Positions 170 through 3,100 of a stretch of 64,000 nt of DNA are shown here, piece by piece (position 1 is the stretch's first letter; each line of letters begins with the position of its first letter). Position numbers and translations under genes: made by a program. Below the pieces are notes generated by a model that saw only the letters and a program-made list of their open reading frames with translations, ran no database searches and was not told the DNA's origin. Source of the DNA: Bolinopsis microptera (lineage: Eukaryota > Ctenophora > Tentaculata > Lobata > Bolinopsidae); assembly GCF_026151205.1 (NCBI RefSeq), contig NC_087075.1, positions 14,645,628-14,709,627 on the forward strand, given 5' to 3'.

Positions 170-3100
170 GTAAGTTACTAGGTGTTACCAGGTACGGTGT
201 TACCATGTGTTACTAGGTGTTACTAGGTGTTACTAGGCGTTACCAGGCGTTACCATGTGTTACTAGGTGTTACCATGACGTGTTACTATGCGTTACCACT
301 TACCATGTGTTACCATGTGTTACCATGTGTTACTAAGTTTAATCACCATAACTTGCATTGAGCAGTTTGTGGTTTAAATGAATTTAGAAGAGCACAATAA
401 TTAATAATATTTGATTTTGCTTGTTTGCGCAACTCAGTGATCAAATAACTAATGTTGTTACAACGGACTTTCCTTTTTTCAGCGTCAGAGTTGCACACCT
501 TACAGAACGCTATCAACAACGCTATCAAACCTGATGGAGTCCTCTTTGACGACCCACCTAACAAGAAGATGAAATTGTGAGTCTTTTTGTAACCACTATT
601 CTGAAGTAGAAACAACTGCTAGTTACCATAGTAACAACCGTGAAGTGTCTCCCAAGTACATGAAAACAAAGCTGGACCAGACAAATTATTTACTATTCCG
701 CTAAATTACTGTAAAATAAAGATTTTAAAACGTCTTCATCTCATTAAACCACGATATAAATTGCTGAGAGTCAGTTGTTCTGAGAGTCAGTTGTTCTGAA
801 GCTGAGGGCAGTCCTTGTGCAGTTGTGCAGTAAACAAACCCTCTCTCACTGCAGTGACAAAAATTGCGCCCATCTTTAAACGCCTCCCCCACCAAGTAAA
901 CACTACTCATGTGCACACACGTCACGCCTCCCCCACCAAGTAAACATTACTCATGTGCACACACGTCACGCCTCCCCCACCAAGTATACATTACTCATGT
1001 GCACACACGTCACGCCTCCCCCACCAAGTATACATTACTCATGTGCACACACGTCACGCCTCCCCCACCAAGTATACATTACTCATGTGCACACACGTCA
1101 CGCCTCCCCACCAAGTATACATTACTCATGTGCACACACGTCACGTCCGAACAAGCTTGGAACGTGCACGCTTCCTCCCCAGTTGCAAGACACGTGCAGG
1201 TGTCACAAGCTCTCCTGAATACCTCGCCTGGCTTGTAATCTATTGTACTCGCATCTAACCTTGCATGTAACTGGTGGTTCAGGGCAAGCCATAAGGGTAC
1301 ACGCTGCAACACCACTCTCCGTACACTCCCAACTGTTACAATCATTCCGTGCACTGTGGATATCGCCAGCCCAAGATGAAGGAATAGTTTCATCCTGGAG
1401 GGCAACGATATGGAGAACTGAACACTGGTCTTAACCAGTGTGTTCACAGTGTTCACCACTAGTCTCAGTAGCAAACTAGGCGTACTCGTCAGCAAATTTA
1501 TAGACCTGCAATATATTCAGATTGTATTTCTAAACCTTACAGAAACACCTGATCTAATTCCACACCCCCCTCAGAAACACCTGATCTAATTCCACACCCC
1601 CCTTACAGAAACACCTGATCTAATTCCACACCCCCCTTACAGAAACACCTGATCTAATTCCACACCCCCCTTACAGAAACACCTGATCTAATTCCACACC
1701 CCCCTTACAGAAACACCTGATCTAATTCCACACCCCCCTTACAGAAACACCTGATCTAATTCCACACCCCCCTTACAGAAACACCTGATCTAATTCCACA
1801 CCCCCCTTACAGAAACACCTGATCTAATTCCACACCCCCCTTACAGAAACACCTGATCTAATTCCACACCCCCCTTACAGAAACACCTGATCTAATTCCA
1901 CACCCCCCTTACAGAAACACCTGATCTAATTCCACACCCCCCTTACAGAAACACCTGATCTAATTCCACACCCCCCTTACAGAAACACCTGATCTAATTC
2001 CACACCCCCCTTACAGAAACACCTGATCTAATTCCACACCCCCCTTACAGAAACACCTGATCTAATTCCACACCCCCCTCAGAAACACCTGATCTAATTC
2101 CACACCCCCCTTACAGAAACACCTGATCTAATTCCACACCCCCCTTACAGAAACACCTGATCTAATTCCACACCCCCCTTACAGAAACACCTGATCCCCT
2201 TACAGAAACACCTGATCTAATTCCACACCCCCCTCAGAAACACCTGATCTAATTCCACACCCCCCTTACAGAAACACCTGATCTAATTCCACACCCCCCT
2301 TACAGAAACACCTGATCTAATTCCACACCCCCCTTACAGAAACACCTGATCTAATTCCACACCCCCCTCAGAAACACCTGATCTAATTGCACACCCCCCT
2401 TACAGAAACACCTGATCTAATTCCACACCCCCCTCAGAAACACCTGATCTAATTCCACACCCCCCTTACAGAAACACCTGATCTAATTGCACACCCCCCC
2501 CCCTCAGAAACACCTGATCTAATTCCACACCCCCCCTCAGCTCCTCCAACGAAGATGACACTGACTCGCTCCTAGAGGGAGCTGACGGTAAACCCTCTGG
2601 TAAAGTATCTCACAATGCGATAGAGAAGAGGAGAAGAGACAAGATGAACATGTACATTGACGAGCTGGCAGCTATGGTACCCATGTGCTCCGTTGTTTCA
2701 AGGTTAGTCAAACGAGGGGATTTAGGGGCAATATACATGCTGGTTACCATGGTTACATGCTGAATTGCTGGATATATTGTCCTTTCTAGTAGTCAGGGTA
2801 AGTTGTGAGCTTGAGTCGTGCAGATAAAGAAATTCGCTTAATTTAATGCGCATGGCTCACACGACTTAGATATAAAATACACTGTGCACGCTGCACTGTG
2901 CACAGTGCACACCAATACTGTGCACACTGCACTGTGCACAGTGCACACCAATACTGTGCACACTGCACTGTGCACGGTGCACACCAATACTGTGCACACT
3001 GCACTGTGCACAGTGTACACCAATACTTTGTACAGTGCACACCAATACTGTGCACGCTGCACTGTGCACTGTGCACACCAATACTGTGCACTGTGCACGG

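Follow-up and report, generated by a model that had tools for sequence, protein, structure and literature searches.

A BMAL1/ARNT-like gene with a tandem acceptor array

The window, that is, the whole stretch of 64,000 nucleotides from Bolinopsis microptera analysed here, carries on its plus strand a BMAL1/ARNT-like gene of 16 coding exons (121..15623) for a protein of 649 amino acids, identified from the gene model, a PDB match and Pfam. In the model, all 15 introns are GT..AG and all are in phase. Among the best 60 of 79 matches, the closest solved relative of the first 458 amino acids is BMAL1 (4f3l_B, E=1e-77), the next is ARNT (1.8e-74), and CLOCK (4.7e-37) and the best HIF-type protein (9.9e-30) follow far behind. 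Pfam identifies HLH, PAS, PAS_3, and PAS_11 domains, and the presence of bHLH, PAS-A, and PAS-B in a single protein whose top match is BMAL1/ARNT characterizes it as a class II bHLH-PAS protein. The scores for BMAL1 and ARNT are too similar to tell which of them is the orthologue, hence the compound name. An independent spliced alignment with the BMAL1 PDB sequence called 10 introns. Six of them (introns 3, 4, 5, 7, 10, and 11) are identical to the model, and the remaining four, around exons 6, 8, and 10, have one or both ends off it. This alignment begins within exon 3 and is hence silent on intron 2.

Exon 2 (483..576, plus strand) ends in phase 2 at a GTGAGT donor in the gene model and is followed by the 1964 nt of intron 2 (577-2540). 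Exon 3 (2541..2702, plus strand, 162 nt) was placed with the gene model and Pfam. It codes for the bHLH basic region and first helix of the BMAL1-like protein, so that the exon after the array does encode the DNA-binding basic region, as had been proposed in the preliminary description of this DNA. An 18-nt purine run within it (2622..2639, plus strand) may act as an exonic splicing enhancer. The exon ends at a modelled GTTAGT donor, beyond which lie the 1107 nt of intron 3.

The 3' end of intron 2 is occupied by a tandem array of acceptor units (1535..2540, plus strand), delimited by TRF and by unit parsing. TRF splits the 34-bp period into two stretches, 1535-2196 and 2196-2535, and also reports the repeat in a 102-bp form (1535-2535, score 1788). 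Unit parsing yields 31 AGs, all of them CAG acceptors. The first in the series belongs to the left flank CCTTACAG (1535..1542, plus strand, AG at 1542), and the others to 30 units, of which 29 are full and one, unit 20 (2185..2205, plus strand), is truncated to 21 bp. The other unit lengths are 34 bp (22 units), 32 bp (five units), 36 bp, and 33 bp (one unit each). The preliminary description had placed about 29 modules of 34 bp at 1537..2702, each with a CTAAT word. The array is real, but it extends over 1535-2540 with 30 units, 2541-2702 being exon 3, the 34-bp length holds for 22 of the 30 units, and CTAAT is lacking from the truncated unit 20. In the 29 units that carry this word, its branch-type A lies 17-21 nt ahead of the G of the AG. 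Every AG of the array is followed by AAACACC except the last, which is followed by exon 3. The unit stops at AG without any exon base, and the last unit abuts the exon exactly. This unit 30 (2508..2540, plus strand), the authentic acceptor module according to the gene model and unit parsing, consists of CTAAT, a C tract, and CTCAG. The unit before it, unit 29 (2472..2507, plus strand), is a TTGCAC variant and would be a decoy. Cryptic donors within the array are rejected, since no GT occurs between 1535 and 2540. Masking of the decoys by RNA structure is unsupported, as the region 2200-2702 differed from shuffled sequences by a z of only -1.24, and 11 of 100 shuffles did as well.

The reading frame distinguishes sharply among the 31 AGs. 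If exon 2 is spliced to an upstream AG, the result is K-M-K-L-N-T-stop at codon 51 in 30 of 30 cases, which bears out the earlier claim that any upstream AG leads to a premature stop. The last AG (2540) alone keeps the frame from exon 2, in agreement with the proposal that the final unit would be the genuine acceptor. Moreover, reading upstream from exon 3, one meets an in-frame stop after about 27 nt and no ATG before it, so that exon 3 must be joined to an exon further upstream. For the same reason, and because no ATG occurs anywhere in the array (1535-2540), an alternative first exon whose start codon would lie within the array or near the beginning of exon 3 is rejected. A second copy of the gene, described below, differs from this one in five codons of exons 2 and 3, all synonymously (one in exon 2, and four of four in exon 3). 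We infer the joining of exon 2 to exon 3 from the frame and from this synonymous-only change, not from homology. The premature stop itself is probably no design feature, since nearly any long intronic extension would hit one.

The strength of the candidate acceptors was scored with a weight matrix built from 52 acceptors of the same genome, 14 from the BMAL1-like gene and 38 from five myosin genes. The real sites have a lower quartile of 7.92 and a median of 8.86, and 26 of the 30 decoys score 7.92 or 8.24. Lower values were obtained for the flank AG (5.43), the truncated unit (7.68), and one TTGCAC unit (6.05). By contrast, unit 29 (10.67) and the true site in unit 30 (10.21) stand about 2 bits above most decoys. 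The earlier wording of "near-identical sites" therefore suits the 26 decoys but not the last two units. Position is the main difference among units, though not the sole one, and strength may matter too. As for the CTAAT word, 10 of the 52 other modelled acceptors have it between -45 and -10 relative to the AG, compared with 29 of 738 background windows taken from introns, and in sequence terms it looks like a branch-point word of the B. microptera genome.

A second gene copy, sister arrays, and the origin of the units

The second copy of the gene is inverted and lies about 130 kb away on the same contig (C4, about 14.77 Mb). Collinear blocks of more than 91% identity between the copies span about 50 kb, and other blocks, mostly tandem arrays, are about 75-90% alike. 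Over exons 2-14, there are 33 synonymous and 3 nonsynonymous differences in 508 codons. The second copy has several defects: exon 1 has three gaps in the alignment and is out of frame, exon 15 lacks 3 nt relative to the window, and exon 16 is matched from base 35 only. Intron 10 measures 4611 nt in the window against 3495 nt in the second copy, and in the window it contains minus-strand ORFs (11239-13336) that we take to resemble reverse transcriptase. Elsewhere in the window, a 50-bp minisatellite of 67 copies (42673-45990) is clean, with 96% matches, yet only about 75-78% like its counterpart in the second copy, as would be expected from unpolished reads there. For the published Bolinopsis assembly, gap closing, removal of haplotigs, and polishing with short reads are described (PMC10232365). 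The second copy seems to be a retained second haplotype more probably than a true inverted duplication. As a possible retained haplotype, duplicate or partial misassembly, it is weak evidence.

In the second copy, the acceptor array has 29 units, collinear with units 1-29 and one fewer at the exon end. The variants occur in a shared order across the copies: CTCAG in units 1 and 16, the truncated unit 20, and TTGCAC in units 26 and 29. The alignment between the two arrays scores 1442 with unit 30 dropped, 1441 with unit 29 dropped, and 1409 with all 30 units. In that copy, exon 3 is directly preceded by a TTGCAC unit, the counterpart of unit 29. With the second copy one unit shorter at this end, the acceptor there is a different unit.

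The acceptor array is not the only array at a splice junction of this gene. A 46-bp array at the end of exon 5 (5382..5839, plus strand; TRF and gene model) carries 10 AGGTTAGT donors, each unit combining 33 exonic nt (exon 5) with 13 intronic nt. The frame is kept by the first donor (5414), and the other nine lead to a stop at codon 184. In both large arrays, therefore, the frame-keeping site is the exon-proximal one, the last of 31 acceptors and the first of 10 donors. The second copy has one donor unit where the window has 10, and there the end of exon 5 reads HN-stop, not HTK, with an in-frame TAG directly before the donor. This single unit with its stop could reflect a deleterious loss of units or a mistake in the assembly. 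A third array is a 42-bp duplication across the exon 11 donor (13593..13708, plus strand; TRF), in which CAG, the end of the exon, is followed by GTACACAG, with 7 exon nt per unit. The unit is single in the second copy, where intron 11 has 162 nt instead of 204, the difference being exactly one 42-bp unit. The second donor, if used, would add 14 codons in frame and without a stop. On sequence grounds, we read this duplication as the same process at an earlier stage. Besides these, one 10-bp array (5247..5287, plus strand; TRF and gene model) ends 4 bases from exon 5, and another (174..335, plus strand; gene model) starts 4 bases after exon 1. A 28-bp minisatellite of about 24 copies (15834-16536), beginning about 210 nt past the stop codon, is possibly part of the 3' UTR.

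To what extent the acceptor unit occurs elsewhere was examined over the 264.65-Mb assembly. With up to 2 mismatches, a 23-bp core of the unit has 39 matches, 29 in the array and 10 in the inverted second copy, while its reversed control has none in the assembly at the same threshold; more diverged copies would be missed at this limit. The same two places, and no others, were matched by a query of 1361 bases from this region. An origin from a dispersed satellite or transposon is unsupported, the core being found at the two gene copies only at up to 2 mismatches. From the sequence, it is quite probable that the native 3' splice site of intron 2 was duplicated in tandem on the spot and so gave rise to the array, a minisatellite whose exon-proximal unit would be used. 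The preliminary description had also proposed growth from the native splice site, and three observations favour it: the confinement of the unit to this locus and its second copy, the one-unit difference at the exon end, and the two exon 11 donors against one. Most likely, the array has no use and is simply tolerated.

Among the other explanations, we regard it as unlikely that an ordinary intronic minisatellite, never derived from a splice site, happens to adjoin the exon in a gene rich in repeats. Repeats are indeed abundant, since tandem arrays amount to about 3.7 kb in this gene against 13.6 kb of introns, and their enrichment at junctions is weak. Five of 30 junctions lie within 10 nt of an array, against 1.9 expected by random placement (P=0.037), and tighter limits give four at 5 nt (P=0.09) and two at 0 nt (P=0.46). 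What argues against chance abutment is that the acceptor itself sits within the repeated unit and that the end of the unit coincides exactly with AG. The comparison with other introns argues in the same direction. Over 53 introns, only two real acceptors, both in the BMAL1-like gene, have a near copy within 120 nt upstream, compared with 5.7 when a random AG is drawn per intron (P=0.014), and a duplicated acceptor is thus an exception. For donors, three have a near copy over the same 53 introns, against 6.3 for random sites with the same dinucleotide (P=0.051). A pooled form of the test gives a stronger depletion, but with control sites that are clustered in arrays. The 53 introns comprise the 15 of the BMAL1-like gene and 38 of 50 modelled myosin introns, from 5 of about 11 myosin clusters and hence six genes in all; 12 myosin introns were left out because they were short, had very small exons next to them, or had low splice-site scores.

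A strong preference of minisatellites for splice junctions is unsupported as well: overlap in the gene is weakly above the placement null, and duplicated sites are depleted over the 53 introns. In this small sample of six genes, splice-site duplications seem to be lost more readily than duplications elsewhere, and the BMAL1-like gene looks like an outlier. The depletion of locally duplicated real acceptors suggests that selection usually removes such duplications, which makes the surviving array informative. Before filtering, a TRF array begins within 2 nt of the donor in 3 of the 50 myosin introns, of which the one in L025 alone passes the duplicate test. These donor-edge arrays belong to three of the five myosin genes (L024:4290-4367; L025, reverse strand, 6406-6449; L022:6284-6381), so that such repeats are not confined to the BMAL1-like gene.

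Choice among 31 acceptors

The preliminary description had it that the spliceosome must pick the last of the sites, with loss of function through NMD otherwise; going by the frame, the last unit would apparently have to be used. A likely way is that exon 3 is recognised as a unit by exon definition, which would lead to use of the exon-proximal acceptor. U2AF and U2 on the last unit would pair best with U1 at the donor of exon 3, 162 nt away, because the flanking introns are long (1964 and 1107 nt) and exon 3 has a GTTAGT donor and a purine tract absent from the array. Leakage to upstream units would give a longer exon 3 with its stop at codon 51, and the RNA would be degraded, assuming NMD, or would be functionless. 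In human data, sites nearest across the exon are favoured in long-intron contexts, but competing 3' sites lean upstream, and exon definition is described as lessening this lean, not as reversing it (PMC9225289). Lancelet genes with duplicated splice sites are reported to splice normally (PMC3087553, PMC3902484). Simple arithmetic, 1/(1+30/r), indicates that 90% correct splicing against 30 equal competitors requires about a 270-fold advantage of the last site over each of them. This required preference is the main reason for doubt, and it is also what makes the locus a useful natural test.

Another alternative is that the array is a working rheostat: unproductive splicing to decoys, together with NMD, would determine how much the BMAL1-like gene yields, and the number of copies would tune this yield. 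If so, each added unit would divert a small share of splicing to a dead-end transcript, the length of the array would set the dose of a clock-type protein, and this length could shift by single units at the exon end. The early stop after 30 of 30 decoy AGs, the scores of 26 of 30 decoys near the lower quartile of real acceptors, and the one-unit difference between the gene copies are all in keeping with such a device. Nevertheless, it appears quite improbable: the stops do not point to design, as hardly any long extension into an intron would escape one, the number of units is nearly equal in both copies, and the other arrays of the gene look accidental.

We also find it very doubtful that the array acts as a landing pad, with repeated branch points and C-rich tracts jointly strengthening the final acceptor of a long intron. 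The array holds the CTAAT word 29 times, always with the A 17-21 nt ahead of the G of an AG, and the word is enriched at other acceptors of the genome. However, each of these branch-point words has its own AG, so that the upstream ones would normally pair with a decoy, and introns 3, 4, and 9 (1107 to 1373 nt) do without any such acceptor array. Finally, it is highly improbable that the number of units or the whole array was made by the assembler, for although the published assembly was gap-closed and short-read polished (PMC10232365) and the second copy is noisy within the array, mostly away from exon 3, the array in the window is clean and the variant units follow one another identically in the noisy copy, an agreement that independent errors would not yield.

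Relation to known systems and other repeats of the window

The closest known kind to the acceptor array is the mirage of lancelets, a minisatellite that duplicates intron/exon boundaries (PMC3087553). The shared features are tandem units of minisatellite size (here 30 units of 21-36 bp, with 46 and 42 bp in the sister arrays) and the presence of splice signals within the units (here 31 CAG acceptors and 10 AGGTTAGT donors), either boundary being a possible target. In lancelet mirages, the number of units is reported to vary among haplotypes with splicing undisturbed (PMC3087553, PMC3902484). The two copies in the present assembly, possibly haplotypes, differ by 30 versus 29, 10 versus 1, and 2 versus 1 units, and they seem to show advanced, middle, and early stages of splice-site duplication, respectively. 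The strict description of a mirage is a boundary-spanning unit, and this applies to the exon 5 array, with 33 exon nt, and to the exon 11 array, with 7 exon nt. By contrast, the units of the exon 3 array have no exon bases and comprise a whole branch-point-to-AG module in 29 of 30 cases. Judged by its sequence, the exon 3 array may be regarded as a variant of the mirage kind that multiplies the intron-side acceptor module alone. Other differences are the 30 units, compared with 6 and 3 in the lancelet BflGb6 haplotypes, and the host, a ctenophore with three junction arrays in one gene. Similar repeats are described in PGBD5. The array would thus extend lancelet-type mirages to a ctenophore. 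Among the matches listed, no report of an acceptor or splice-site minisatellite array was found beyond the lancelet mirages, which does not imply absence from print.

Other systems resemble the array in part. In poison exons and NMD-coupled unproductive splicing, use of the wrong site gives a premature stop. This feature is shared, but poison exons are further characterized by regulation and conservation, whereas the array is known from sequence alone. Experiments on how the spliceosome selects one of several equal sites usually employ a small number of engineered copies. A single transcript, with its 31 acceptors for exon 3 and 10 donors for exon 5, would offer a natural test of the effect of position among near-identical competitors. 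In NAGNAG tandem acceptors, the AGs are 3 nt apart and depend on one shared branch point. Here too, multiple AGs compete for one exon, but they are 21-36 nt apart, and 29 of the 30 units have a branch-point word of their own, which sets the array outside the NAGNAG definition. With this spacing and separate branch-point words, the choice would be made at first recognition and not at the second step, following the distance classes of PMC9225289.

Two further repeat regions occur in the window. Between runs of 36 and 53 G, about 9 kb (30693-39621) consist of a degenerate short repeat of the CCAGGACACACTCC type with a strong strand bias, which looks like an unpolished or gap-filled minisatellite. 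At 50987-57977, two arrays of one 39-bp unit and two of ATTGACATTA flank a long minus-strand ORF (52903-55314), which presumably resembles a Copia-type polyprotein.
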